A DNA stretch of 64,000 bases from Micromonospora parathelypteridis. Its GTDB lineage: Bacteria; Actinomycetota; Actinomycetes; Mycobacteriales; Micromonosporaceae. Position numbers and translations under genes: made by a program. The notes beneath the pieces were generated by a model. The model was not told where the DNA came from and made no database searches. It saw nothing but the letters and a program-made list of their open reading frames with translations. Shown one piece after another: positions 45,257 through 64,000 of the stretch; the stretch's first letter is position 1; the number at the start of each line of letters is the position of its first letter. The DNA lies in NCBI RefSeq assembly GCF_014201145.1, contig NZ_JACHDP010000001.1, positions 4,464,001 to 4,528,000 of the forward strand. The letters run 5' to 3'.

Positions 45257-48200
45257 ATGCGTGAGGATTCGCCGCGCTGGGAGCAGATCAATTCGAGCGC
45301 GTTCCCGCACGAGCAGGACGGTCTGCGCGAGCTGGCGTCGTACCTGCCGGATGCCGAGCCGTACCACGTCTGGGCGAACGTCGAGTTTGTCGGCACCGAC
45401 GGTTCGATCAACGAGGTCGACGCGCTGGTGCTCACCTCGCGCGGCCTCTATGTGCTGGAATTGAAGCACTGGCAGGGCGTGATCGCCGGAGACGGCCAGC
45501 AGTGGCGACGCAAGATGCCGGGCGGCAGTCGCCGGACGTTGGACAGCCCGCTCATCCTCGCCAACCGCAAGGCCAAGCGGCTGCGCAGCGTGCTGCAGCA
45601 GTACGCCCCGCATGGCGCCCGGGTCCCCTACGTCAACGCGGCGGTGTTTCTGCACGCGCGGAACATGCGCTCCGAGCTGGATGACATCGGCCGCCAGCAC
45701 GTCTACGGGCTCGACGGCAACTCGTCCCAGCTGCCAGGTTTGAAGGAGATGCTGCTCGCCCGCCCAGTCGACGCCAAGCACCATGTCGACGCGGTGCGCG
45801 GGCGGCAGATCGTCGAGCTGGTCCGCGGCGCGAAGATCCGCCCTTCGGTGGCCGACCGGCGGGTCAACCAGTTGGTCCTGCGCCAGCGGCCCTTCGCCGA
45901 GGGCCTCGGCTGGCAGGACTTCCTGGCCGACCACACCGTCGATACCTCCCTGCTGCGCCGGGTGCGGTTCTATCTGACCAGCCGTGCGGCTGAGGAGGAC
46001 GTGCCGGCGATCCGGCGGGCCGCTGAACGCGAGTTTCGCCTGTTGCAGGGCATCCACCATCCGGGGATCGCGCGGGCGTTGGATCTGGTGGAACACCCGT
46101 GGGGGCCAGCCGTCATCTTCGACCACCGGCCGGAATGGGTCCGCCTGGACCAGTGGCTGGGCGAGCGGGACGGCAAGCTGCAACTGGCCCAACGGCTCCA
46201 GCTCGTGCAGGATCTCGCCGAGATCGTCGACCACGCACACTCCCGGAGGCTGTCGCACCGTTCGTTGAATCCCCGGGCGATCTACGTCTGTGACCCGGAG
46301 AGTGCCCGTCCGACCCTGGTGATGACGGACTGGCAGACCGGGGGGCGATTGCCGGGGACCAGGCTTACCTCCTTCGGCTCACCGACCGACCCGGCCAGTC
46401 TGGAACTTTTCTTCGACGATGCGGTCCGCCGCTACCAGGCACCGGAAGCGGCCAGCCTGGACGAGTTGCCGGGGCATCAGCTCGACATCTTCTCGCTCGG
46501 CGCCCTCGCGTACCGGATCTTCGCGGGAGCGGAACCGGCGACCTCGGCGGAGGAGTTGCTCGCGGCGGTCGCTGACGGCGGCCTGCACCTCGACTCGGTC
46601 GCCGACGGCATGCCGTACGCGCTGGTGGAGGCGGTCTACGACGCCACCCGGGGTGACCCGGCGCAGCGGATGAAGCGGATCGGTGACTTCCGGGCCTGCA
46701 TCGACCTGGTCTGGGAGGAGCTGACCGCCCCGGAGCCGGTGCCGGTGGTCGACCCGCTGCAGGCGCATCGCGGCGATGTGCTCGACGGCGGTCTGACGGT
46801 GCTCCGCAATATGGGCAGCGGTGCCACGGCCATTGCCCTGTTGGTCAGCCAGGACGGGCCGGAGGGCAGCCCGGAACTGGTGCTCAAAGTGGCGCGTGAC
46901 GAGCAGTTCGCTGACCGTTTCGCCGCCGAGGCTCGCACGGTCGAGCAGCTCCGCGACTCCCGCGTGGCGGCCCTGGTCCAAGGCCCGATCAAGGTCGGCG
47001 GCCGGACGGCCCTGTTGTTGGAGAACGCCGGGCAACGCACCCTCGCCGAGGATCTGCGGGGTGGTCGGCTGGCGCTGGATCTGCTGGAGCGCTACGGCCG
47101 CGACCTGCTGGAGATCGTCGCATTCCTCGACGGGCAGGGAGTGTGGCACCGGGACATCAAGCCGGCCAACCTGGCGTCCCGGCCCCGACCGAAGGACAAG
47201 CAGCCGCACCTGTGCGTCTTCGACTTCTCGCTCGCCGCGGTGCCGGCCGATCAGCTCACCGCCGGCACCACCGCCTATCTGGACCCGTTCCTCGGGCCGC
47301 CGCGCCGGCTGCGCTTCGACGCCGCCGCAGAGCGGTTCGCCGCGGCGGTGACCCTCTACGAGATGGCCACCGGCACCCTGCCCCGGTGGGGCGAGGGCGC
47401 CAACCCGTTGGCCATCACCGACGAGGTCACCCTCGATCCGGCCGCCTTCGATGTCTCCGTCGCGGACCGCCTGGTCGCCTTCTTCGCCAAGGCGCTGGCT
47501 CGGGACACGGCGAACCGCTTCGACACGCTCGACGAGATGACCGACGCCTGGCGGGCGGTGTTCCGGGAGATCCCGGAGCCGGAGGCGGGCACCGACGACA
47601 CCGGCACGCTGGCGCCCCTGGACCGGATGTCGCCGTTGGAGGCCACCGAGTTGACCGCCCGTGCGCGGTCGGCGCTGGAACGGCTCGGCATCCTCACCGT
47701 CGGGGAGCTGTTGGACGCCGAGCCGTCGGCGCTGACCCGGGCCCGGGGGGTGCCGGACGCCACGCGCAAGGAGATCCTGGCGCGCACTCGTGAGCTGCGT
47801 GACCTGCTCGGGCCAGACCCCGAGCCGACTCCGGCCCGGCCGCACGTCCAGGGCATCGAGGCGCTCTGCGCCAGCCTGCTGCCGGCGGAGACCACCCGCA
47901 ACGCCGGGCAGCGGCCCATGCTGCAGGTGCTGCTCGGGCAGACCGCCGTCGACGGCAGCTTTCTGCGTTGGCCGTCGCAGGCGGAGGCGGCCCGCGCCAC
48001 CGGCAAGCAGCAGCCGCAGTTCTCCAACCTGCTCAAGCGGGTGATCGCCCGGGACTGGCAGCCGAACGCCGCGCTGAGCCTGGTCCGCGACGAGATCGTC
48101 GCGCTGCTGGACGCGCGCGGCGGGGCGATGTCCGCCGAGGAGGTGGCCGAGGCGCTGATCGCCACCCGTGGCTCGTACTCGGCCGAACCGAGGCGTACCG

Positions 48201-49378
48201 CGCAGGCCATCGGCCTGGTCCGGGCGGCGGTGGAGACCGAACTGGCCCGGGGCGGCGACGCCCGGTTGGCCGAGCAGCGGCTGCGCGGCAGTCGCGGCGT
48301 ACTCATCGGTCGGGAGCCGGACGACCCCGGCACCGTGCGGACGGCTGCGGACCTGCTCGGGTACGTGGTCCGGCTGGGTCGCCGCGCGGTCGCGCTGGCC
48401 GGCGCGGACCCGCTGCCCACCCGGGCCCGGGCCGTCGAGGAACTGCGGGCGTTGGAGCCGCCGCCGACCGGCATGCCAGCGCTCAGTGACGCCCGGCTGT
48501 TGCAGCTCGCCGCCGCCGGCAGCGGCGGCGAGGCCGCCGTCAACGCGCAGGGTCAGCTCTACCCGGCGGGGATGTCCGCCGAGCGCGCGGTGCGACTCGC
48601 GGCGGGCGCGCTGGTCGGTCAGAAGCTCGACCCCGAGACGGTACGCGCCAGAGTCCGTACCCGATTCCCGCACGCCGTGCCGTTGCCGGCCCGGCCGACG
48701 CTGGACGCGTTGCTCCGCGAGATACCTCTGGTCTGGGATCCGGTGGCGGGCCATTACCTGCCGCCGGACCGCTCCTCATCGGTCACCGGGACCCGGGTGT
48801 TGAGCACGGTCGGGCCGCTCCTGGAACCCGACGCCGCGGCACAGGCAGCGGCCCGGCTGGCCGGAGTGATCGACCGACGCGGGTTCGTGGTGCTGCTCGC
48901 CTCCATCCGGCGGCTCGGCCGGGCCCGGCGAGCGCTGCTGGACCGGCTTGACCTGGTGGAGGTCGACGTCACCGCGATCCTGCTGCGGGAGCTGCGCACG
49001 CTCGGCTTCCCATGGGAGGCGATCGTCGCCGCCGACAACGGCTCGCCCACCGACCCCGATTTCCGTTCGCTGGTCGAGCTGGTGCGCCACGAGGTGGTCC
49101 CGGCGATCGAGCGCGCGCTCGCCGAGACCGACCGCCCGGTGCTGATCACTGAGGCCGCGCCGCTGGCCCGCTACCAGCAGTTGCGGCTGATCCAGGAACT
49201 GGCCGATCCGACCCGAACTCGCCCGGCCGCCCGGCTGCTGCTGGTGCCGGCCCGCCGCACCGAGCCGGTGCTGCTCGACGGGCAGCAACTGCCGCTGACC
49301 TCACCGGCCGGCCAGTCACTGTGGCTGCCCGAGGACTGGCCCCCCACCCCCGCCCTGGAGAGGACCACCCCCCGATGA
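45257..49378 (+). CDS. pglW: BREX type 2 (Pgl) protein kinase PglW
   Basis: A 1373-residue protein matching PglW. An N-terminal NERD nuclease-related domain has NEVDALVLTSRGLYVLELKHW (about residues 52-72, D and ExK). Two kinase-like domains follow. The first (about 230-490) is degenerate, with SHRSLNPRAIY and TDWQTG in place of HRD and DFG. The second (about 515-770) has LRNMGSGATAIAL, the lysine in LVLKVA (about 543), VWHRDIKPANL (about 629) and FDFSLA for DFG. A helix-hairpin-helix-like stretch lies near 795-845, then a long helical tail. In Streptomyces, PglW is a Ser/Thr kinase needed for phage growth limitation. The stop overlaps the pglX start by 4 bp. Confidence 0.93.
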   Translation: MREDSPRWEQINSSAFPHEQDGLRELASYLPDAEPYHVWANVEFVGTDGSINEVDALVLTSRGLYVLELKHWQGVIAGDGQQWRRKMPGGSRRTLDSPLILANRKAKRLRSVLQQYAPHGARVPYVNAAVFLHARNMRSELDDIGRQHVYGLDGNSSQLPGLKEMLLARPVDAKHHVDAVRGRQIVELVRGAKIRPSVADRRVNQLVLRQRPFAEGLGWQDFLADHTVDTSLLRRVRFYLTSRAAEEDVPAIRRAAEREFRLLQGIHHPGIARALDLVEHPWGPAVIFDHRPEWVRLDQWLGERDGKLQLAQRLQLVQDLAEIVDHAHSRRLSHRSLNPRAIYVCDPESARPTLVMTDWQTGGRLPGTRLTSFGSPTDPASLELFFDDAVRRYQAPEAASLDELPGHQLDIFSLGALAYRIFAGAEPATSAEELLAAVADGGLHLDSVADGMPYALVEAVYDATRGDPAQRMKRIGDFRACIDLVWEELTAPEPVPVVDPLQAHRGDVLDGGLTVLRNMGSGATAIALLVSQDGPEGSPELVLKVARDEQFADRFAAEARTVEQLRDSRVAALVQGPIKVGGRTALLLENAGQRTLAEDLRGGRLALDLLERYGRDLLEIVAFLDGQGVWHRDIKPANLASRPRPKDKQPHLCVFDFSLAAVPADQLTAGTTAYLDPFLGPPRRLRFDAAAERFAAAVTLYEMATGTLPRWGEGANPLAITDEVTLDPAAFDVSVADRLVAFFAKALARDTANRFDTLDEMTDAWRAVFREIPEPEAGTDDTGTLAPLDRMSPLEATELTARARSALERLGILTVGELLDAEPSALTRARGVPDATRKEILARTRELRDLLGPDPEPTPARPHVQGIEALCASLLPAETTRNAGQRPMLQVLLGQTAVDGSFLRWPSQAEAARATGKQQPQFSNLLKRVIARDWQPNAALSLVRDEIVALLDARGGAMSAEEVAEALIATRGSYSAEPRRTAQAIGLVRAAVETELARGGDARLAEQRLRGSRGVLIGREPDDPGTVRTAADLLGYVVRLGRRAVALAGADPLPTRARAVEELRALEPPPTGMPALSDARLLQLAAAGSGGEAAVNAQGQLYPAGMSAERAVRLAAGALVGQKLDPETVRARVRTRFPHAVPLPARPTLDALLREIPLVWDPVAGHYLPPDRSSSVTGTRVLSTVGPLLEPDAAAQAAARLAGVIDRRGFVVLLASIRRLGRARRALLDRLDLVEVDVTAILLRELRTLGFPWEAIVAADNGSPTDPDFRSLVELVRHEVVPAIERALAETDRPVLITEAAPLARYQQLRLIQELADPTRTRPAARLLLVPARRTEPVLLDGQQLPLTSPAGQSLWLPEDWPPTPALERTTPR

Positions 49379-52300
49379 TCGCGCTCAAGGCGCTACAAGG
49401 CCAGGTCACCGCCCTCACCGATGACCTGCGCGACCAGGTGGCCCGGGATTCCGAGCTGGAGTCGTCACTGCGCAAGGAGCACGCCCAGGCAACCGAGGCG
49501 CGGCGTACGGCGGGGACCTTCGAGACCTGGCTGGAGGACGTCCTCGACCAGGCGACCGTGGCCTGGGTGCTCGGCTGCGTCTTCGTCCGTTTCTGCGAGG
49601 ACAACGCGCTGGTCGAGCCGCTGTGGATCGGTGGCCCGGAGCCGGTGGCGCCGGTGGAACGGGCGGTGCAGCACCGCCAGCAGTACCTGATCGACAACCC
49701 CCGGCACAACGACCGGGAGTGGCTGCGGGAGGCGTTCGGCTACCTGGCGACGCTGAAGGCCACTGGCAAGATCTTCGACGAGCACAACCCGGTGTGGCGG
49801 TTCGGCATCTCCGGTGAGGCGGCCGAGAAACTGTCGGAGTTCTTCCGGCGCGGGCCGGGGCTGGTGTCGCTGCGGGTCGCGGACCTCGACACCCGCTTCC
49901 TCGGCGACCTCTACCAGGACCTGTCGACCCACGCGAAGAAGACGTACGCGCTGCTCCAAACGCCGGACTTCGTCGAGGAGTTCATCCTGGACCGGACGTT
50001 CGAGCCGGCGGTCAAGGAGTTCGGCCTGTCGGAGACGTCGGTCATCGACCCGACGTGCGGGTCAGGGCACTTCCTGCTCGGGGCGTTCGGTCGACTGGTG
50101 GCGAAGTGGTGGCAGCGGGAACCGGCTACCGACATCCGAGTGCTGACGGAACGGGCGCTCGGGCAGGTCACCGGGGTGGACATCAACCCGTTCGCGGTGG
50201 CGATCGCGCGGTTTCGGCTGCTGATCGCCGCGATGAAGGTGTGCGGCCTGACGTCCCTGGAACGCACACCGGCCTGGCCGGTCCGGGTGGCGACGGGCGA
50301 CTCGTTGCTCGACTGGGGCCGTAAGTCGCGGCACCAAGGGGATCTGTTGGCGGTGCTCGGAGGTCGGGACGCCTTCGCGTACGCGACCGAGGACGCCGAC
50401 GTGCTCGGTGACTACCTGCGCAAGGGGCAGTACACGGTGGTAGTCGGCAACCCGCCCTACATCACGGTGAAGGACAAGGCGCTCAACGATCGCTATCGCG
50501 AGGAATACTCGTCGGTTTGCCACCGGCAGTACGCGCTGACGGTGCCGTTCGCGAAGCGCTTCTTCGATCTGGCCAAGCGGTCGGACGAGCATGGCGACGG
50601 CGCGGGTCACGTCGGCCAGATCACCGGCAACGCCTTCATGAAGCGCGAGTTCGGCAAGAAACTCATCGAGGACTACTTCGCGCACACCGTCGAGCTGACC
50701 GAGGTCATCGACACCTCGGGAGCTTATATCCCCGGCCACGGCACGCCCACGGTCATTCTTGTCGGTAGGGCAAAGGATCGCCGGCACTCTCGAAAAGTCT
50801 TGGCAGTTCTCGGGGTTCGCGGAGAGCCCTCCCAGCCTGCTGACCCGGCAGCAGGATTGGTGTGGTCTGCGATCAAGGCAGGCGTCACTCGGTCGGAAGG
50901 CAACTCAGAGTGGGTGACCGCGGTTGACTTGGACCGCGGGCGGTTGGAGACGCATCCCTGGAGTCTGAGTGGCGGCGGCGCGAGCAATTTGGTGGCTTCG
51001 CTGGAAGCCGAGGCCAGACGGATGTCGCAGGTTGTGGATCTGCCAGTGGGCCGAGCGATCCGCGCGGGCGCTGACGAAGCTTTCATGCGGCCGCTGGGCC
51101 GGAAGATGCGGGTAGCAGCCGACGCCCGAGCGTTGCGTCCGTTGATAATTGGTGAAGCTGTCAGAGACTGGGCCTCCTCGCCCGAAGACGCAATCTGGTA
51201 CCCCTACGATTCGAGTCTGGGTCAGGCTGGTCTGTCGGTTGAGCTATGGCCGTGGCGAACCATGCTTGCCGCTAGGCGGACCTTCCAGGGCAGTATGGCT
51301 GATGCCGGATTGCGCTGGTGGGAATATCATCAGCACACTGCGTCTGCGTATCGCACTCCGCTCTCCATTCCCTTTGCGTTTGTGTCGACGCATAACCATT
51401 TTGTGTTGGATCGGGGAGGGAAGGTCTTCAATAGGTCGGCACCAGTGATTAAGTTGCCGGAGGGGGCAGCGGAGGACGATCACATGCGGCTGCTCGGGGT
51501 GCTGAACAGCTCGACCGCCTGCTTCTGGCTCAAGCAGGTGAGCCAGAATAAGGGCAACGGTGGGATTGGTGGCGGGATCGGCGATGAGGCGTGGGAGCCC
51601 CGCTACGAATTCACCGGGACCAAGTTACAGGAGTTTCCGCTGCCAGGGGCTTACCCGTTGGAGCGGGCGCGACTGCTCGATTTGCTGGCGCAGCGGCTCG
51701 CCAGCCTGACGCCGGCGGCGGTCGCAAAGTCTGGCGTGCCGACGAGGGAGCGGCTGCGGACGGCGCAGGTCGACTACGACACGACCCGAGCCCGCATGAT
51801 CGCGGTGCAGGAGGAGGTGGACTGGGAGGTCTATCGCCTCTACGGGCTGCTCGATGACGACCTGACCTGTGCCGAGCCACCGGGTCTTGCGCTGGGGGAG
51901 CGAGCGTTCGAGATCGTGCTGGCGCGGAAGATGGCCGCCGGCGAGGTGGAGACGCAGTGGTTCGCGCGGCACGGGTCGATGCCGATCACCGAGGTGCCGG
52001 CGCATTGGCCGGATGACTATCGGGCGCTGGTGCAGCGGCGGATCGAGGTCATCGAGTCGGATCGCAACATCGCGTTGGTCGAGCGGCCGGAGTGCAAGCG
52101 CCGCTGGGCTACCAACGGCTGGGACGCGATGCAGACCAAGGCGTTGCGGGACTGGTTGCTCGACCGGTTGGAGTCGCCCGAGCTGTGGGGGGACCGGCCG
52201 ATGCCACAGTCGGTGGCGCAGCTCGCCGACCGGGTACGCCATGACGAGGACTTCCGTTCGGTGCTGGAGCTGTGGGTCGGCCGCGACGACCACGACCAGA

Positions 52301-52848
52301 CGAAGACCCTTGCAAAGCTGGTCGCCGACGAGCATGTGCCCTACCTGCCGGCCCACCGCTACAAGCCGTCCGGGCTGCGCAAGCGGGCACAGTGGGAGCG
52401 CACCTGGGCGCAGCAGCGCCTGGAGGACGCGGGCGAGGATGTGGACATCAAGGTGCCGCCGAAGTACACCTCGGCGGACTTCACCCAACCGTCGTACTGG
52501 CGGGCGCGGGGCAAGCTCGACGTGCCGAAGGAGCGCTTTATCTCGTACCCGAAGGCGGGCCGGGATGGCGACGGCACGGAGCTGCTCGGCTGGGCCGGGT
52601 GGGACCACCTCGCCCAGGCCCAGGCGCTGGCGACCGTCTACCTGGACCGGAAGTTGCAGGCGGCGTGGCCGGCGGATCGGCTGCTGCCGCTGCTGGCGGG
52701 CATCGCCGAGCTGGAGCCGTGGCTGCACCAGTGGTACGCCGACGAGCGACCGGGCTTTCCCGGCTCGCCGGCCCAGTTCTTCACTGAGCTGGTCGACGCG
52801 GAGCTGTCGCAATTAGGGGCGGATCGCTCGAGTCTCGTTCCGGCGTGA
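49375..52848 (+). CDS. pglX: BREX type 2 adenine-specific DNA methyltransferase PglX
   Basis: A 1157-residue gamma-type N6-adenine methyltransferase. The N-terminal helical part includes VAWVLGCVFVRFCEDNALV. The SAM motif is DPTCGSGHFLLGAF (about residues 224-237) and the catalytic motif VVGNPPYITVKD (about 356-367). A target-recognition region and a large helical C-terminus (about 850-1157) follow, with VPPKYTSADFTQPSYW. In Pgl/BREX-2 it marks host DNA, and in Streptomyces it may mark progeny phage. The ATG overlaps the pglW stop (ATGA), so the two are coupled. The stretch at about 50,760-51,480 uses less GC-biased codons, consistent with a variable target-recognition domain. Confidence 0.95.
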   Translation: MIALKALQGQVTALTDDLRDQVARDSELESSLRKEHAQATEARRTAGTFETWLEDVLDQATVAWVLGCVFVRFCEDNALVEPLWIGGPEPVAPVERAVQHRQQYLIDNPRHNDREWLREAFGYLATLKATGKIFDEHNPVWRFGISGEAAEKLSEFFRRGPGLVSLRVADLDTRFLGDLYQDLSTHAKKTYALLQTPDFVEEFILDRTFEPAVKEFGLSETSVIDPTCGSGHFLLGAFGRLVAKWWQREPATDIRVLTERALGQVTGVDINPFAVAIARFRLLIAAMKVCGLTSLERTPAWPVRVATGDSLLDWGRKSRHQGDLLAVLGGRDAFAYATEDADVLGDYLRKGQYTVVVGNPPYITVKDKALNDRYREEYSSVCHRQYALTVPFAKRFFDLAKRSDEHGDGAGHVGQITGNAFMKREFGKKLIEDYFAHTVELTEVIDTSGAYIPGHGTPTVILVGRAKDRRHSRKVLAVLGVRGEPSQPADPAAGLVWSAIKAGVTRSEGNSEWVTAVDLDRGRLETHPWSLSGGGASNLVASLEAEARRMSQVVDLPVGRAIRAGADEAFMRPLGRKMRVAADARALRPLIIGEAVRDWASSPEDAIWYPYDSSLGQAGLSVELWPWRTMLAARRTFQGSMADAGLRWWEYHQHTASAYRTPLSIPFAFVSTHNHFVLDRGGKVFNRSAPVIKLPEGAAEDDHMRLLGVLNSSTACFWLKQVSQNKGNGGIGGGIGDEAWEPRYEFTGTKLQEFPLPGAYPLERARLLDLLAQRLASLTPAAVAKSGVPTRERLRTAQVDYDTTRARMIAVQEEVDWEVYRLYGLLDDDLTCAEPPGLALGERAFEIVLARKMAAGEVETQWFARHGSMPITEVPAHWPDDYRALVQRRIEVIESDRNIALVERPECKRRWATNGWDAMQTKALRDWLLDRLESPELWGDRPMPQSVAQLADRVRHDEDFRSVLELWVGRDDHDQTKTLAKLVADEHVPYLPAHRYKPSGLRKRAQWERTWAQQRLEDAGEDVDIKVPPKYTSADFTQPSYWRARGKLDVPKERFISYPKAGRDGDGTELLGWAGWDHLAQAQALATVYLDRKLQAAWPADRLLPLLAGIAELEPWLHQWYADERPGFPGSPAQFFTELVDAELSQLGADRSSLVPA

Positions 52849-52915: not shown

Positions 52916-54445
52916 GTGACTGAGAGTGTGGATCGCATGGAGAACGCCAGCGGAGTAGCGCAACTGATCCTGCAGTTGCGCGGTGGTGCCAATATCCGGG
53001 GGCCGCAAAACTACGCCCACTCCGTCGAGCACGGAATCCGGCTGGGAGACGTCGCGGCGGAGCTTGGTCCCGACCTGGCGGCACTCACCGCGCTCTACCC
53101 GGACGGTGTTGCTCGCTTCTGGGGGTCGACGCCGACGAACCAGATGAACAACTACAAGGCGCGAGCACTGCGCGACCGGCGCGTCGGCGATGACGTCCTC
53201 TTCTACGCCGACACGGCGTTTTTCGCACGTGCTCGGATCCTGCACCTGCTGCACAACCCTGCCGCGGCCAAGCGGATCTGGGGAACCGATGACGACGGGC
53301 GGACCTGGGAGCACATGATGGCGCTCGGCGACGTCGAGCGCCTTGAGCGGCCAGTTCCGGCCGCTCCGATCCTACGTCGGCTCGGGCTGAGCGTCCCGTT
53401 GCGGAGCCTCACCCTGGCCACTGCGGCTGACTACGCCACGATCCAGCCCCTGCTGGCCGCGGCAGGGGTCACGCCCCGCGAACCCACATTCACCGCTCCT
53501 CGCAAGATGACCCGCAAGCGGCTGTTCAAGGCGTTGAAACGAGTCGTCGATGCCTGTCATGGGCAAGACGTTGACCCGTCCGCAAGGCGCCTGCCGCTGA
53601 CTGTGCTCTGGAACATCGGGCAGATCGCCTCAGCTGACGGTCACCCTGCAGAGCCACAGCACCTCAGGTCCGACCTTGAGTCGATCCTTCAGCGGTACGA
53701 CGCGACGGACAGCCGACCGGGCGATGCGGAGCTGTCCGGGAAGCTGCGTGATAGCGGGCTGTGGGAGATCGCCAGCAGCAGCGAACTCTGGGAGGTCGAT
53801 CGTTCCGGCTTACATGGGAGGCAGCGCTCCGATCGCCGTGCCATGGATGCGGATGTCCCGTTGATTGGTTTCGCCTCGGCAGTGACGGCTCTGCTCGGTG
53901 ACCCGGAGACTCAGGGCCGCGCGGTGGCCGTCCTGTCGCCTGCGCTGCCGGTCGACATCGACAAGGCGGCGTTTCTGGCGGACGTCGGTCTTGCCGGCTA
54001 CGACTCCGCATCGGGGGTGCTGGACGCAGAGGAGGTTGCCGGATCCGAGGCCGGTGATCAGGGTCCGGCAAGGCGAAAGACGGTGCAGATCGAGCGCATC
54101 GTCCGTAGTTCGGCCGTCGCCGAAGAGGTCAAGCGACTCCACGGGCACCGCTGCCAAATCTGCGATACCCGGCTGGCGACTCGCTTTGGCTTCTACAGCG
54201 AGGCGGCCCACATCAAGGGGCTGGGTAGACCTCACGTGGGCTCGGATCAAATCGACAACGTGCTCTGTCTATGCCCGAATCACCACGTCCAGTTCGACGC
54301 CTTTGCCATCTTCATCGACAGCGACCTCGTCGTGCGGTGGGCAGTTAGTGGCGAGAAGATCGGCAAGCTGCGGCTACACCCGAAGCATCCGATCGGAGTG
54401 GACAATCTTCAACACCACCGCCGGTTCTGCGGAAAGGCGGACTAA
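52916..54445 (+). CDS. HNH endonuclease, candidate type IV restriction enzyme
   Basis: A 509-residue protein. The C-terminal HNH domain (about residues 405-470) has CQICDTRL, YSEAAHIKGLGRPHVG and NVLCLCPNHHVQFDAFA. It therefore keeps the paired zinc cysteines plus the His, Asn and His catalytic residues. Actinobacterial type IV enzymes that cut modified DNA carry this HNH form. The N-terminal 130 residues (VARFWGSTPTNQMNNYKAR, GDDVLFYADTAFFARARI, DDGRTWEHMMAL) look like an EVE/ASCH-like modified-base reader, which is inference only. It starts 67 bp after pglX on the same strand and may be a co-transcribed partner. Several GTG/ATG starts are possible near 52916-52937. Confidence 0.82.
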   Translation: MTESVDRMENASGVAQLILQLRGGANIRGPQNYAHSVEHGIRLGDVAAELGPDLAALTALYPDGVARFWGSTPTNQMNNYKARALRDRRVGDDVLFYADTAFFARARILHLLHNPAAAKRIWGTDDDGRTWEHMMALGDVERLERPVPAAPILRRLGLSVPLRSLTLATAADYATIQPLLAAAGVTPREPTFTAPRKMTRKRLFKALKRVVDACHGQDVDPSARRLPLTVLWNIGQIASADGHPAEPQHLRSDLESILQRYDATDSRPGDAELSGKLRDSGLWEIASSSELWEVDRSGLHGRQRSDRRAMDADVPLIGFASAVTALLGDPETQGRAVAVLSPALPVDIDKAAFLADVGLAGYDSASGVLDAEEVAGSEAGDQGPARRKTVQIERIVRSSAVAEEVKRLHGHRCQICDTRLATRFGFYSEAAHIKGLGRPHVGSDQIDNVLCLCPNHHVQFDAFAIFIDSDLVVRWAVSGEKIGKLRLHPKHPIGVDNLQHHRRFCGKAD

Positions 54446-57601: not shown

Positions 57602-57796
57602 TCAGCGGAAGGTGCGGGCCGTTCGCACGAAGGTGATCCAGGCGGTGGGGGTGAAGGCGAGGGCGGGCCCGTGCGGGTCCTTGCTGTCGCGTACAGCGAT
57701 GATGCCGGGCAGGTTGTCGGCAACCTCGACACACTCACCGCCGTTCCCGCCGCTGCGGGTGCTCTTGCGCCAACGAGCGCCGGTCAGATCAGTCAT
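57602..57796 (-). CDS. DUF397 domain protein
   Basis: A 64-residue DUF397 protein: WRKSTRSGGNGGECVEVAD at the start, then IIAVRDSKDPHGPALAFTPTAW, the full family signature. In actinomycetes DUF397 genes sit next to XRE/DUF5753 regulators and act with them, sometimes as toxin-antitoxin-like or developmental switches (BldB/WhiJ-type systems). Its ATG overlaps the end of the XRE gene by 8 bp. Here the partner regulator has an in-frame stop. Confidence 0.92.
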   Translation of the reverse strand: MTDLTGARWRKSTRSGGNGGECVEVADNLPGIIAVRDSKDPHGPALAFTPTAWITFVRTARTFR

Positions 57797-58673
57797 GGTG
57801 GACCTCCCCGATGATCTTGTGGATCAGTTGCTTTGATTGTTCCTCATCAAGGGCGAGCGAGAGCAGTCCCGACCAGACCCTTTCGTAGGCGGCCACCTCG
57901 GTGGGCCTGTCGAGGTACAGCGACCCTGTCCACGACTCGCTGTAGACCACATCCGGCTCCGGGGTGCTCCTGTTGCCGGGCGGGAAGCCAAGCAAAACAA
58001 ACTCACCTCCGACAGCACCATGATGCGGACCAGCGGCGAGAGGTAAGATCTGAATCGATACGTTCGGGAGGTTGGACATCGTCAGCAGATGGGCCAGTTG
58101 CCCCGCCATGGTCCCGGCAACGCCTACCGGCCGAAGGAGCACGGACTCGCAGAGCACCACCTGCACCTGCGGCGCCTTTGGCAGGCGGCGGGTCAGCAGG
58201 GACTGTCGCTGCAGGCGAAGCTCGACAGCGCGTTCCCGGTCGTCCTCGCTCATGTCGGGCTGGTCGATGCGGTAGATGCCTCAGGCGTAGTCGCGGCTCT
58301 GCAGAATGCCCGGCACGAGGCTGTTCTTGTAGAAGCGGAGTCTCGACGCTGCGGATTCGAGGCCGACGTACAGCTCGAACCATTCGGGGACGGCATCGCC
58401 GTACGCGTGCCACCAGCCTTTCGCTCTGGTCTCGCCAGCCAGGGAGGTCAGCGCTCGGGCCAGCTCGCCCGTCGCCCCGTACAGCTCGCACATGGCGCGG
58501 ACGTCGACGCCGCGCATCGACCCGAGCCCGCTCTCGATCCGCCACACCTTCTGCCGGCTGCACTCCAGCGCCTCGGCGGCGGCGTCGAGGGTTATCCCCG
58601 CCTCGGTGCGCAGGTCACGCAGCGCTCTGCCGAGCTGTCGTCGGGGCACCGTCGAGCCCATGTCGTCGGCCAC
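57789..58673 (-). pseudogene. XRE family regulator with DUF5753 domain, interrupted by in-frame stop
   Basis: From the GTG at 58673 the frame encodes an XRE helix-turn-helix (LRDLRTEAGITLDAAAEAL, CSRQKVWRIESG). It then enters the DUF5753 domain and reaches a TGA at 58281-58283, just after VPGILQSRDYA. The same frame continues without a shift as GIYRIDQPDMSEDDRER and on to a normal C-terminus (LSLALDEEQSKQLIHKIIG). Intact relatives read straight through this point, so one nonsense substitution splits the gene. The first piece keeps the DNA-binding domain and might still act. An internal ATG (58253) could express the second piece. Sequencing error is an alternative. Confidence 0.82.
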
Positions 58674-58688
58674 GCGGGCTCTCCTTCC

Positions 58689-58739
58689 TGTTGAATTTTG
58701 CAACATCCCGACGGCGGTTTTGCAACAGGGGAATGTTGC
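58689..58739. promoter_or_regulatory. Cluster of TTGCAACA-type sites, candidate operator
   Basis: The promoter region between the XRE pseudogene and the plus-strand operon has TTTTGCAACA twice (58696-58705 and 58718-58727). The motif also appears in inverted orientation (TGTTGC, 58734-58739). The first copy lies inside the imperfect palindrome TGTTGAATTTTGCAACA (58689-58705). Repeated half-sites next to an XRE gene suggest an autoregulatory operator. Confidence 0.45.
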
Positions 58740-58888
58740 CCACAAATAACGGAACAGCGTGAGTCGACATTCATTGCGATAGTGCCTCTGACCTTACAAG
58801 ATAGGTCCGACAAAGGCGACGACCGTGCAATTCCCGTCGCCTGTCAATTGTCGACCGAATCCGTCACCGAAGAAAAGGTGGTGCTGCC

Positions 58889-59199: not shown

Positions 59200-61213
59200 C
59201 CCCCCACACCCGCTGTCGTCACCTGTCCCGACTGCGACGGGATGACCTTCACGCTGGACCCGTGCCGGTGCACCGCCTACGGCGACCGGTTCCTCGCCGA
59301 CGCCGACCTCCCCGGCCCGAGCCGGGAAGCGTACCGGGGCTGCGAGCAGTGTCGGGGCGCGGGCAGCGTCGCGTACCCCTGCTATCGCTGTGGACGGCGC
59401 GGCCGGCGGCGGGCGCAGCTCGTGGCCAGCGTCGCCAACCTGGACACCGGCGCGGTCGCGTCCCACCAGGTCGTGCCCGGCGGCCTCGACCCCCACCGCG
59501 ACCCGGCGGGCCACTGGGTGGTCGACCTTGCCTCCCGGGTACGCGAACTCGCCGCCTGCGTCGGCGCGGTCGTAGCCGACACCGACGCGCCGTCACTGTG
59601 GCTGTCACAGCAGTGGCGACCCGACCTGCCCGCCGCGCAGCGGTACGAGTTGGAGGCCCATGCCATCCTGCGGGCCGATCACGCCCCCTGGCGGCTGCTG
59701 CTGGGCCGATCCACGGCCACGCCGATTGTCGACCCGGCCGCCCGGCTCTGCGCGCTGGCCGACCTGCTGCTGCTTGACCTGGTCGTCGAGGCACGCCGGC
59801 AGGGCGCGGGGTTCGGCTGGGCCATCCGGTACGAGGTGCCCGGCTCCCCGGTGCCCTCTGGGCCGCCCGGCGGGTGTCCGGACCTGCCGGAGGCGCTGAT
59901 CCACACCGACGTCGACAGCGCGCTCGCCGGCCTCGCCGAGCGCGGCCTCGCCGCCCCTGCCCGGCTGCTGCGCCCCGACTCGCCGCGCCCACCCGTCGCC
60001 CCGGCCGAGGACGTCGACCAGCTCGAACGGCGTGTCCTCGCCGACTGCGTCGACGCTGTCGACGGCGACGAGCTGCCCGGAGCGCAGGCGGTCTGGCGGG
60101 ACGGCCGCTGGTGGCACACCACCCTGCGTGTCGGCGAGCCGGTGGAGATCCTCGCCGAGCAGCCCACCGGCCAGGTGGTCCGCCGCGTGCAGGTGCCACT
60201 GGGTCGCGGCTACGAACCGCCCGACGCGTCCTGGCTGGGTGAACACGTCGAGTGGCGGCCCTGCCCGGACTGCCGGCCGCACTGCCGGTTGCGCGCCTGC
60301 GACTGCCGGCTCGGCGGTCGCCCTGCCGACTCCGATTGTCCGCAAAGCTCCGGCGCTGGGCTGTGCCCGTCCGCGCTGCACTGCTTCACCTGCGGTGACA
60401 ACCACCGCCTGCATCGGACCGTGCTGGTCACCGTCACCGATCTGCGGCACCGGGTGGTGCACCTGGCCTGGCAGGCCGGCACGCCCGAGGTCGCCCCGCT
60501 GGTCGCCACCCAACCCAACGGCGGGCCCGTCGTGCAACTGCCCGACCGCTACCGGCTCGGCTCCTGGGCGGCCATCCTCGGCGCGCAGCCCGAGGACCTC
60601 GCCGACGCGGACGGCAGGCACGAAATCGGCAAGGACCTGCGCGACGGGTACCTCACGCTGCCCTGGGCCGGGGCTGACCCGGTCGGGGAGTACGTGCGCA
60701 GTGCCGAGCGGGGCACGGCAGCCGGCCGCCTGATCGTGGTGGCGGCCCCCCGCCGCGCCGCCGCTGCCCGAGCTGCTGCGGCTCGCCCTCGGCCTCGACC
60801 TGGCCCTCGTGGTGGCCGTGTGCGACCGGCGGCATCACGCCGGTGACCCGTTGCTGGCCGACGGACTGCGCTGGTCTGTCGAGGTGAAACCGCGTGACGC
60901 ACCCGTCCTCCCCGACGACCTGCCCTACCGGCCGAGCCTGGCCGCCGCCCGCGCCTGGTGTCGGGAGTGCCTGACCGACGCCATCGCCGGGGCCGCTCCA
61001 ACCGACCCGGCAGCGCGCCCATCCCGGTGCCCTGGTCGGGGCCTCGGGACGTCGTCGCCGATCCCGCGCCGGATCTGCTGCGGCTCGCTGCCCCGGCACG
61101 CCGGACAGGCGGTCACCGTGCGGTTCACCCGCGCCGGCTGCGCGGTGCACCGACACGACGACGACGGCGTGCGCCTCCTCGCCGAAGGCCCCGACCTGCG
61201 CGGCGTCCGGTAG
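59196..61213 (+). pseudogene. Cys-rich zinc-ribbon hypothetical gene with multiple frameshifts
   Basis: The GTG at 59196 overlaps the upstream stop (GTGA) but is out of frame with the main body. Removing one C from the C6 run at 59200-59205 gives a continuous TCPDCDGMTFTLDPCRC ribbon. The body (to about 60745) has more Cys pairs (CEQCRGAG, CYRCGRRG, CPDCRPHCRLRACDC, CFTCGDNH). At a second C6 run (60746-60751) the sensible frame shifts, continuing PELLRLALGLDLALVVAVCD. Two further compensating shifts near 61010-61100 lead to QAVTVRFTRAGCAVHRHDDD and the stop. About 650 residues if repaired. Function unknown. Either decay or homopolymer sequencing error. Confidence 0.65.
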
Positions 61214-61265: not shown

Positions 61266-62564
61266 TCAGACTGACGGCGACACTCCGGGAGACCGTCCAC
61301 CGCGACCGGCGAAAAGATCCCGCAATTCGTCCCGCCCTCGCAGGAGGGTCTGCAGCAGGTTGGCGGTGTTCGTGTTAGGCGGGAGGGGTAGATCCGTGGC
61401 CAGATCCCGAATGCCGAACTCTCCCGTCAGCCAGGCGCGGAGGGCGCGGAGGTGCTGCGTCTTCCTGTCGGTCGCCGGCAGGGCCCAGACATCTGTCTCG
61501 TACGGTGTGTCGTCGTGCCCCAAGCCGGCCAGCAGACCGGACTGGCGGATCAGGCACGGGAAGCAGTGCCCGCAGTGGTGCGACCTGCTCGCGCCACCGA
61601 ACTTGCAGGGCGACTGGCCGCAGCTCACGGTCTTCATGAGGGCGGTGAGTGGCAACCCGGCTTCCGTCGCCCGGCGGCAGACCTCACCCTTGGTGGCTGG
61701 CAGCAGCGGGTTCACCACCTGAACACCTCCGCCGGCGGCGCCGATGAGTTGATTGACCAGGTGCAGCGTGCGTGGATGGACGGATCGCGTGGAGCAGGCG
61801 GCCACCCGTGCGCCGGTCAGCGGCGGATTCACCGCCAGTTGCCCGTTTTCAGGCACAGCGACGTGGCGGGCCTGATGAGCGGCGGCCGCGAAGACCGCAG
61901 TGGCCAGGAAGAGCAACCCGCGCGACCGTGAACTTCGATCCAGGCGTACGCCGTTGGCCCGCGACTGCAGCAGCACCGCCCGGTGCTCGACGGGACGTGC
62001 ACTCAGGCGGCTCACATGGGCGAGGATCTGCTCCTGGCGGCGTTTGAGCGTGGGGTCGTAGTAGGACACCAACAGCAGCGGGCCCGCGGTCTGTTGGACC
62101 CGTTCGGCTGCGTAGGCAGTGGAGTCGAGACCTCCGGAGAAGAGCGCAACCTCTTCGACCTGTGCGTCGTCCAGCAGTCGTCCCTGCACGCCGGGGTGCC
62201 TGCTTGCGCCGGCGTGAAACCGGATACTCCACCGATCGGCCGTGAGTAGTTCCAGCAGCGTGGTGAACATCGGCTCGCCATGTTGCCACCGATCCGGGTC
62301 GATCACCTGAACGGACAACTCGATGGTCCGGGTCCAGCGGTCCGCTGCGCGCTCACGCCCGGAGAGCTTGTCGGCCAGATACACGGCCTTTGCGACACGG
62401 AGAAAATCCTGCGCCCAGTCCGGTGGTGGTGGTGCGGGAGACAGGGTGCGTTCGATGGCACTGCCTTTGGCCCGGAAAAGCCGATCGCCGAGAGGTTGGT
62501 GAGAAGGGGGAAATGTGACCCTGCCGTCGGTGGTGTAGTGGTAGGCGTACTGGCCCTCGTTCAC
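61266..62564 (-). CDS. QatC-like QueC-family ATPase
   Basis: A 432-residue protein. A 135-residue N-terminal extension is followed by a QueC-like PP-loop ATPase: VALFSGGLDSTAYA (about residues 139-152), LLLVSYYDP and PENGQLAVNPPLTGAR. A C-terminal zinc site reads SCGQSPCKFGG and then HHCGHCFPC (about 345-370). Free-standing QueC is about 230 residues; this length and layout fit QatC of the Qat anti-phage system. QueC makes 7-cyano-7-deazaguanine, and defence homologues are thought to use related adenylation chemistry on proteins. The GTG at 62564 overlaps the upstream QatB-like stop by 4 bp. No qatA or qatD gene is visible. Confidence 0.8.
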   Translation of the reverse strand: MNEGQYAYHYTTDGRVTFPPSHQPLGDRLFRAKGSAIERTLSPAPPPPDWAQDFLRVAKAVYLADKLSGRERAADRWTRTIELSVQVIDPDRWQHGEPMFTTLLELLTADRWSIRFHAGASRHPGVQGRLLDDAQVEEVALFSGGLDSTAYAAERVQQTAGPLLLVSYYDPTLKRRQEQILAHVSRLSARPVEHRAVLLQSRANGVRLDRSSRSRGLLFLATAVFAAAAHQARHVAVPENGQLAVNPPLTGARVAACSTRSVHPRTLHLVNQLIGAAGGGVQVVNPLLPATKGEVCRRATEAGLPLTALMKTVSCGQSPCKFGGASRSHHCGHCFPCLIRQSGLLAGLGHDDTPYETDVWALPATDRKTQHLRALRAWLTGEFGIRDLATDLPLPPNTNTANLLQTLLRGRDELRDLFAGRGGRSPGVSPSV

Positions 62565-63313
62565 GGCTGTACCTCCCGTATGCCGAGTGCTGTATCCACC
62601 GTTTGCGTCAGCAGTTCGCGGGCGGTCTCGACGAGCAGACCCTGGCTGGGGGTCCGACTGGCAGCGTCGGTGCAGGGGTCGGGCAGAGCACCGAGAACCT
62701 GGGCGGTGACCCTGCTGGCGACCAGCCCGGTCGGATCGAACGGAACCGCGAGCGCCATCGCCAGCGGAAGGCCCTCGGCTATGACGGTGCCGACGTAGCC
62801 GCCCACGAGTTCGCCGAAGAAGAACCGGTAGATGCTGCAAAAGAGGTCGCCGGGGAGGCGTACAGAGCCGTCGCCTGCACGCAGCGCAGTGTCCACTGGT
62901 GAGTCGGCGTCCAACAGTTTCTCGGCTGTTCGTCGGGCTGCGCGACGCGCGACGGCGTCCCCGACCAGCCCGCCGTCTCCACCCACACTGGCGACGAACC
63001 GGGCTACGAATTGGTCCTGACGTTCCGCGGTGGTCGCACCCGGGACGTCGACCAGCCTGGACCTGCCGTGCAGCAGATCCCCGAGAACGTCCACCAGATG
63101 GTTGCCCGCGCGGAACGCCGCGGGGCGGAGACCTGACATGTCAGGGTCGTCATCGATTGACTCGGCCAGCGCCCGGCGGTACTGCCGGGCAACCTGTTCC
63201 GCCCAGTCGCGATTCGCTGCGGAGGGGCTGTCAGCCGCCCACTGCCCCAACCGGGTGTGGGCGGGGCTCCAGGGCCCACCGCGGGGCCCAGGCAACTTCG
63301 TGGACGTGCCCAT
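62561..63313 (-). CDS. QatB-like protein of a Qat-type defence module
   Basis: A 250-residue protein starting MGTSTKLPGPRGGPWSPAH. The MGTS-Gly/Pro-rich opening is what I recall for QatB. The rest is helical (VARQYRRALAESI, AFRAGNHLVDVLGDLL, FFFGELVGGYVGTVIAEGL). The ATG at 63313 has GAGGTGA a few bases upstream. An in-frame GTG-type extension upstream is rejected because it hides the Gly-2 N-terminus. It precedes and overlaps the QatC-like gene. If QatC conjugates a deazaguanine-type group to the partner's N-terminal glycine, as reported for a related QueC-like defence enzyme, this N-terminus would be the acceptor (inference). Confidence 0.72.
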   Translation of the reverse strand: MGTSTKLPGPRGGPWSPAHTRLGQWAADSPSAANRDWAEQVARQYRRALAESIDDDPDMSGLRPAAFRAGNHLVDVLGDLLHGRSRLVDVPGATTAERQDQFVARFVASVGGDGGLVGDAVARRAARRTAEKLLDADSPVDTALRAGDGSVRLPGDLFCSIYRFFFGELVGGYVGTVIAEGLPLAMALAVPFDPTGLVASRVTAQVLGALPDPCTDAASRTPSQGLLVETARELLTQTVDTALGIREVQP

Positions 63314-63669
63314 CGTCACCTCGCAGGGCGTAGGCGGCAACGATCAAAGCTTATGGGTACGCACGGTATCCGTCCATGTCCTATCGGTTACATCAGTAGC
63401 CGGTGATCGCGCGTGAACTGGGGACGAGTGTCTGTTCATCTGTCAGGAAGCCGACTCTCGGCTGCCGGGCGTCCGGTCCGGCCGGCCACCTGAGCCTCTG
63501 GTAAAGCCTCCTGACCTGGGTCGCCTCGACTTTCCGGCCACTGTGGTCAGTGAAGGAGGTTGGGTCGAGGGCTCATTCAGCCCGCACGGCGGTCATCCAA
63601 GCCGGTATCCGGACATCGGGGCCGATGGGTAGCGTGTCGGGCACCCTGGGGGAGGCTGGAGGAACACCG
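63314..63669. other. Divergent promoter region between qatB-like gene and pglY
   Basis: 356 bp without a gene separate two divergent starts. Local AT enrichment around 63340-63400 (including AAGCTTATGGG and TATCGGTTACATCAG) probably holds promoter elements, but I cannot assign -10/-35 boxes with confidence. Only weak short inverted repeats are visible. Regulation shared between BREX and Qat-like genes from this region is possible. Confidence 0.5.
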
Positions 63670-64000
63670 GTGACGCTGCTGCGCGACCTGATCGACATCC
63701 CGACGTCGGTTGGTGAGGGCGACTTCGTGGTCAAGGCGGCCGAAGGCGCCGACCTGGACCGGTACGTCGTCACCGACCAACTTCGGGAAAACTTCAGCAG
63801 CGCGCTGCAGAAGATCGGGCATGCCGTCACCACCGGCCGCTCGCAGGCGATGTTCCTGCACGGCTCGTTCGGTTCCGGCAAGTCGCACTTCATGGCTGTG
63901 CTGCGGGAGATCCTGGCGCACAACTCGCGGGCCCGGCAGATCCGCGGGCTGGAAGGGCCTGTTGTCGCCGCCGACGCGTGGCTGCCGCAGCGGACATTCC
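63670..64000 (+). CDS. pglY: BREX type 2 ATPase PglY (5' part, continues beyond window)
   Basis: The frame opens at GTG 63670 and has no stop before the window edge (110 codons). The visible part reads LLRDLIDIPTSVGEGDFVVK, then RYVVTDQLRENFSSAL. It has a P-loop in MFLHGSFGSGKSHFMAVL (about residues 62-79). This is the characteristic N-terminus of PglY, the large AAA-type ATPase of Pgl/BREX-2 (normally about 1200-1300 residues). pglZ is expected downstream. It is separated from pglX by 10.8 kb of other genes and is divergent from the QatB-like gene. Confidence 0.9.
   Translation, partial: MTLLRDLIDIPTSVGEGDFVVKAAEGADLDRYVVTDQLRENFSSALQKIGHAVTTGRSQAMFLHGSFGSGKSHFMAVLREILAHNSRARQIRGLEGPVVAADAWLPQRTF

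Follow-up and report, generated by a model that had tools for sequence, protein, structure and literature searches.

A putative minimal QatB-QatC pair between pglX and pglY in a BREX type 2 locus from Micromonospora parathelypteridis

A stretch of 64,000 nucleotides from the genome of Micromonospora parathelypteridis (the window; positions 4464001-4528000 of a single-contig genome of 7.01 Mb) carries two overlapping genes on the minus strand, here termed qatB* and qatC* (together QatBC*). The initial annotation had reported this pair from the DNA letters, and both genes are present at the coordinates that it gave:

61266-62564, minus strand: qatC*, 432 residues, a QueC-like ATP pyrophosphatase with the N-terminal extension of QatC, an SGGLDS loop, a CSTRSVHP motif and a CGHCFPC motif.
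62561-63313, minus strand: qatB*, 250 residues, ATG at 63313 and start MGTSTKLPGPRGGPW; a QatB-fold protein beginning MGTS, with Gly2 as the presumed acceptor once Met1 has been removed.

The GTG start of qatC* and the stop of qatB* share four bases (GTGA), and both genes are preceded by Shine-Dalgarno-like sequences (GAGG ahead of qatB*, GGGAGG ahead of qatC*). Measured against relatives from two other genomes (L115 and L116), the ratio of non-synonymous to synonymous substitution rates (dN/dS) was 0.29 and 0.32 for qatB* and 0.17 and 0.27 for qatC*. Values between 0.17 and 0.32 suggest that both are real genes under selection.

The larger protein is matched by the PADLOC QatC model (E 1.5e-69) and by the solved QatC chains 9vlk (E 3.1e-41) and 9zee (E 2.9e-40, with an alignment over residues 31-377 that includes the extension), such that the similarity to QatC spans both extension and core. 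The SGGLDS core starts near residue 139-142, and the N-terminal extension of about 135 residues proposed for this PP-loop protein is therefore right. Sequence searches with QatB* against PADLOC, NCBIfam, Pfam and PDB sequences returned no QatB match, whereas both profile-profile comparison and fold comparison gave a positive relation to QatB; the identification of the pair as QatB- and QatC-like is thus borne out, although the similarity of the smaller protein to QatB escapes the profiles of PADLOC, NCBIfam and Pfam.

No qatA gene (KAP NTPase) is present in the operon, the sole KAP NTPase match of the genome lying at 70316, megabases away, and no qatD gene (TatD nuclease) either, with TatD matches at 1715093 and 3926046 only: the lack of both genes, first noticed around the pair, holds genome-wide in that every such match is far from the window. 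Whether this KAP NTPase might be a distant QatA was weighed and rejected: it shares about 20-27% identity with proteins of the QatA type, for the most part within the initial 340 residues, and has no QatB or QatC beside it; its model scores are about equal for QatA (104.6 bits) and PifA (91.7 bits).

Relatives were taken as the best 80 of 162 from a scan of named genomes, picked by closeness to the window QatC, and counts from them are hence not prevalences; together with 17 Micromonospora loci, less nine duplicates recognised from contig and position, and the window itself, 89 loci were compared. Of these, 21 had the KAP-QatB-QatC-TatD arrangement in whole or in part (some genes being lost to the gene caller or to contig ends), and 68 held QatB*-QatC* or remains of the pair, with L091 assigned to this set rather than to the canonical one after inspection. 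None of the 68 QatBC* loci had a KAP or TatD gene-cluster member in its fetched flanks, a count that very divergent KAP or TatD proteins would escape. The two sets separated in a tree of 88 rows (L129 was too short and was omitted) with a support of 99 in the Shimodaira-Hasegawa-like approximate likelihood ratio test, and the split held at 100 when ten further qatABCD-like QatC and 32 QatBC* rows, chosen by hand, were used; both trees were quick searches without bootstrap. On these sequence comparisons QatBC* forms its own actinobacterial branch and is not a decaying Qat. The absence of qatA and qatD could also be taken to mean that the window pair is left over from a complete qatABCD operon in decay, which is the least probable of the explanations that we weighed: both frames are intact and show the dN/dS values given above, and the whole QatBC* branch is without qatA and qatD in the fetched loci, where no search aimed at gene fragments was made. 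An incomplete Qat, as offered by the initial annotation, fits poorly with a branch that stands apart and holds many two-gene pairs, and its suggestion of a distinct minimal protein-modification system is the best fit among its options. With regard to mobile carriage, phage records gave no matches and plasmid records seven, six of them annotated as qatC, at 27-34% identity.

Two sequence features of the pair were followed across these loci. In 59 of the 68 QatBC* loci (58 fetched loci, all MGTS, and the window) and in 19 of the 21 canonical loci (18 MGTS, one MGSS), a frame that ends close to qatC opens with a start codon and then G-[TS]-S. L129 has this start as well, outside the distance rule, and it was not found in L035, L039, L047, L056, L074, L085, L089 and L091, some of which are contig ends or fragments. 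The MGTS start with its Gly2 is thus real and almost universal across the family; MGTS is a conserved QatB motif, and a G2D exchange abolishes defence (Gao and co-workers, PMC13279940, here and below cited from part of its text). In QatC*, the first of the two substrate-site threonines (Pa T278 and T280) is kept and the second is serine in 65/68 QatBC* rows, the motif ST-[RK]-S-[VAT]-HP being matched in 65/68 rows (no match in L038, L045 and L084) and STRT[TM]HP in 20/21 canonical rows. This serine is not diagnostic, because the qatABCD-like locus L090 and five later qatABCD-like genomes (G488, G572, G602, G666, G371) have STRSTHP. Four of the Streptomyces qatABCD-like rows (L179, L182, L184 and L188, from G488, G572, G602 and G666) form a close group among the qatABCD-like rows, with QatB starting MGTSGSYGGSG and QatC carrying STRSTHP.

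The surroundings of the pair within the window comprise the following features:

45257-49378, plus strand: pglW, BREX (bacteriophage exclusion) type 2 kinase (PglW, 1567.7 bits).
49321-52848, plus strand: pglX, BREX type 2 methyltransferase (PglX, 1678.7 bits).
52916-54445, plus strand: HNH_2 endonuclease gene in the pglX-pglY gap (HNH_2, E 1.2e-9), a candidate auxiliary effector.
57789-58745, minus strand: HTH_31/DUF5753 regulator gene in the pglX-pglY gap, in two pieces (58281-58745 and 57789-58253) with an in-frame stop between them, scanned apart.
63314-63669, no strand: divergent intergenic region between qatB* and pglY, 356 bp, a candidate bidirectional promoter.
63670-64000, plus strand: 5' end of the gene for the BrxC-type ATPase PglY, the GTG after GGAGG being taken by eye as its start; the gene runs past the window to base 8449 of L003.

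Beyond the window, pglY is followed by pglZ, brxD and brxHI, and all six BREX type 2 genes match their models over nearly full length: with pglW and pglX before the pair and pglY, pglZ, brxD and brxHI after it, qatBC* lies inside a BREX type 2 locus. The initial annotation had correctly named pglY and the divergence from it, with 356 bp between qatB* and the pglY start as placed by eye, but had not described the BREX type 2 locus around the pair. A stretch of about 50-60 bases directly ahead of pglY (window 63620-63700 and L115-L117), which contains a GGGTA...CACCC inverted element, is nearly invariant in four Micromonospora loci, in contrast to the remaining intergenic sequence, which drifts; might this stretch be a leader or operator? 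Beside qatC* (59242-60846, plus strand) lies a gene for a 534-residue protein without Pfam match, relatives of which also stand beside qatC* in L115-L117 (cluster c44). Nine proteins encoded between pglX and pglY in the window were scanned and gave no match to a CD-NTase (cGAS/DncV-like nucleotidyltransferase), no search aimed at CD-NTase having been made.

This setting recurs. A survey for QatBC pairs beside pgl genes without qatA and qatD had been suggested, and in 13/68 QatBC* loci the pair is indeed divergent beside pglY, with four changes on the tree; pglX lies on the far side in 12 of these 13, the contig ending first in L042. The Micromonospora and Streptomycetaceae groups have the same plan despite a PglY identity of only 31-34% between them, and in nine loci 240-374 bp separate the QatB start from the closest base aligned to PglY. 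Other placements are divergent from pglW, after brxHI and before pglW. A BREX-2 core gene was present in the fetched flank of 24/68 QatBC* loci as opposed to 0/21 canonical loci, a comparison confounded by taxonomy. Several Micromonospora pairs (L031-L035, L044, L047, L049, L087, L123, L125) adjoin an M50 peptidase gene (cluster c2), with PglW, an SNF2 helicase, a WD40 protein or an S9 peptidase on the other side.

Within 160 Micromonospora genomes, the QatC model gave 23 matches, comprising five weak ones (about 1e-4), two canonical-like ones (G159, G041) and 16 QatBC*, the loci of which were examined. PglY was matched in 45 of the 160 genomes (a few matches being fragmentary or weak) and in 10/16 QatBC* carriers against 35/144 (Fisher p 0.0026; this and the following Fisher tests ignore kinship), with the pair beside pglY in 4/16 and beside pglW in 5/16 carriers. 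Within 333 Streptomyces genomes, 17 QatC matches comprised eight QatBC* (G177, G516, G578, G627, G634, G730, G745, G777) and nine with KAP and/or TatD nearby. Here PglY was matched in 73/333 genomes and in 6/8 QatBC* carriers against 67/325 (p 0.0018), lying beside the pair in four (G177, G578, G634, G730); the nine qatABCD-like genomes had PglY in four (against 69/324, p 0.11) and beside the pair in none (4/8 versus 0/9, p 0.029). Across 325 genomes of the class, QatC was matched in nine and PglY in 39.

These associations would be expected if QatBC* were a working part of BREX type 2, with the divergent region driving expression of both the pair and pglYZ-brxD-brxHI, and with the pair serving BREX as sensor, back-up effector or regulator. 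We regard this as possible, if well short of probable: most BREX-2 genomes of the two surveys have no QatBC*, so that it fails as a core component of the type 2 system, the fetched flanks of 44/68 loci are free of BREX-2 core genes (though contig ends cut some of them short), and 8/24 QatBC* genomes of the two genus surveys have no PglY match (6/16 Micromonospora, 2/8 Streptomyces). Furthermore, defence genes cluster anyway. The same eight genomes speak against PglY acting as a stand-in for the QatA ATPase, an idea of the initial annotation to which the divergent position of pglY lends itself; QatB and QatC alone moreover protect against phage lambda, if not against all phages, with QatA and QatD affecting the range (PMC13279940). 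A borrowed PglY is hence unsupported as a rule and, in our assessment, highly improbable.

The gap itself offers a different view of the position. Forty BREX-2 loci were fetched, 20 from Micromonospora without QatBC* beside pglY and 20 from Streptomyces, two of which were chosen with it. The apparent pglX-pglY gap was measurable in 39 of them and ranged from 21 bp to 15 kb; it was at least 800 bp in 33 loci, with relatives of the DUF5753 regulator in 25 of these 33 gaps. Of the genes that recur in the gap, ten representatives were scanned, six with Pfam matches (HATPase, GmrSD, PIN_8, Schlafen helicase, NB-ARC/TPR, OLD-TOPRIM) and four without. As the gap carries other defence genes too, the best reading of QatBC* is that of interchangeable cargo in BREX-2, a working link with BREX being possible. 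The gaps of L138-L177 hold variable cargo of up to 15 kb, including recurrent large proteins of 462, 991, 659 and 556 residues without Pfam match. The sections cited here of two earlier papers place pglWX and pglYZ of S. coelicolor 6 kb apart (PMC4365076) and report nuclease back-up effectors from a BREX survey (PMC12839542), the main text of which contains neither "QueC" nor "Qat"; the survey's filter, as given there, takes genes in the same orientation at a spacing of about 100 nt, and a divergent pair would thus be passed over. In the literature searched, which left most subscription papers and preprints outside, we found no report of QatBC inside BREX-2.

QueC and Cap9 share 7-carboxy-7-deazaguanine (CDG) as substrate, and CDG is made by QueE. 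We counted QueE with TIGR04508 at E 1e-3 in 41 genomes classed by locus, weak matches being counted as present; TIGR03365 scores the QueE of the window genome poorly, and PF01242 is too broad. QueE was matched in 5/16 Micromonospora QatBC* genomes (strongly in G000, G002, G050 and G069, weakly in G065) and weakly in 2/10 Streptomyces QatBC* genomes (G516, G745), the ten comprising the eight of the genus survey plus G391 and G409 from the class sample: no match to this model was obtained in 19/26 QatBC* genomes (11/16 and 8/10, respectively). The qatABCD-like genomes gave two weak matches (G691, G762) and none in 10/12, which extends the doubt on the donor to actinobacterial qatABCD; none was obtained in three further QatC carriers (G306, G339, G428; loci not inspected), and 8/14 control genomes were matched. 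For most QatBC* carriers a host-made deazaguanine donor is thus doubtful. The donor in most carriers is probably not derived from the host queD-queE route, and salvage or another route is possible.

The window genome itself carries queD and queE at 4.28 Mb, next to dpdA and dpdB, with the result that CDG can probably be made there. This dpd-like cluster (L131, about 4281495-4286788 of contig G000:C1, some 177 kb before the window; DpdA 610 bits, DpdB 426 bits, QueD, QueE 350 bits) would, judged by its model matches, be a second, DNA-modifying deazaguanine system. Together with the QueC-type core of QatC* and the conserved Gly2, the presence of these genes is in keeping with QatC* being a deazaguanylase that, like Cap9 of type IV CBASS (cyclic oligonucleotide-based antiphage signalling system), places CDG onto Gly2 of QatB*. 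We nevertheless consider this unlikely, since most carriers gave no QueE match and the nucleobase-recognition Tyr/Asp of QueC and Cap9 are replaced by Thr/Ser in CSTRSVHP (own alignment; residue roles from PMC13279940); in addition, QatC activity could not be reconstituted in the published work, and no CDG was seen in a structure determined in its presence (PMC13279940). The deazaguanine-type conjugation of the initial annotation is accordingly weakened for the branch, while the window genome does possess QueE. This is a sub-question of how the pair works, such that its probability overlaps with that of the reading to which we now turn.

By analogy to published QatBC, the pair most likely works as a complex with ATP-driven modification of Gly2 in an active site occupied by the QatB* tail. 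QatB* and QatC* would assemble, Met1 would be removed and the flexible MGTS tail would enter the QatC* active site; QatC*, via its SGGLDS PP-loop, would spend ATP on the activation of an acid donor and join this donor to the amine of Gly2, and the modified QatB* would be licensed to stop phage when the pair is triggered. The genes, fold and profile relations, motifs, selection, place, recurrence and the absence of QatA and QatD were observed in this analysis; complex formation, Gly2 dependence and sufficiency of the pair would carry over from the published work, and we infer on that footing that the window pair functions in the same manner and on its own beside BREX. Taken together, qatB*-qatC* may be a Qat module that is minimal by nature, with two genes only, and that acts as in published QatBC, carried between pglX and pglY of BREX type 2 as an interchangeable cassette for defence, a reading on which our confidence is evenly balanced. 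A pair that acts alone is favoured by the interchangeable contents of the gap and by those QatBC* loci that have no BREX. Several results weigh on the other side: the pair lies beside a BREX-2 core gene in 9/16 Micromonospora and 4/8 Streptomyces carriers, and this repeated place beside pglY or pglW (13/24 carriers of the two genus surveys) favours a BREX link, which could mean a working connection and not cargo; QatC* scores 245 bits on the NCBIfam QatC model and does not reach its curated cut-off of 280; QatB* is only about 12-13% identical to canonical QatB; and the PADLOC QatB models, matching 5/5 canonical QatB tried, match neither the window QatB* nor any of five others.

Given that the PADLOC QatB models miss this branch, surveys that require QatB will overlook it, and public names of relatives ("7-cyano-7-deazaguanine synthase", "hypothetical protein") mislead. 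The group attached by QatC to QatB is an open question (PMC13279940), and QatBC* offers a natural minimal pair for finding it: as most searched carriers are without QueE, they allow a search for the donor in hosts that should contain no CDG. Besides the nucleases already reported from within BREX loci, QatBC* would be a cassette of another kind, a putative protein-modifying one. The survey of PMC12839542 retained neighbours in the same orientation within about 100 nt, whilst QatBC* is on the opposite strand; common to both are pglW, pglX, pglY, pglZ, brxD and brxHI and a defence cassette within the core locus.

In comparison with QatB-QatC of qatABCD (PMC13279940; PDB 9y01, 9y02, 9vlk, 9zee), QatBC* shares the QatB fold, the MGTS start, a Trp near residue 15, the order qatB-qatC, the QatC extension, the SGGxDS loop, the Zn-type cysteines and the ST-x-[ST]-x-HP motif. 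It differs in being without qatA and qatD, in its separate actinobacterial branch and frequent location inside BREX-2, in the serine at the second motif threonine (also seen in some qatABCD-like actinobacterial loci), in a QatC* below the NCBIfam cut-off and in a QatB* unseen by PADLOC. Previously, qatA was found beside only 34.3% of the QatC cluster (PMC13329287), and pairs without qatA are thus implicit in those data, if not described in the part of that paper cited here. Cap9 (PMC13279940) likewise combines a QueC-like enzyme with an N-terminal-glycine protein partner, but the partner encoded beside qatC* has the QatB fold where that of Cap9 is a CD-NTase, and QatC* is extended and does not keep the base-recognition residues. 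With QueC, the preQ0 synthase, QatC* shares the PF06508 core as a partial match, whereas it bears the N-terminal extension and, in a correspondence drawn by eye, VPENG and CSTRSVHP in place of the QueC motifs VPxRN and YPDC (PMC13329287).
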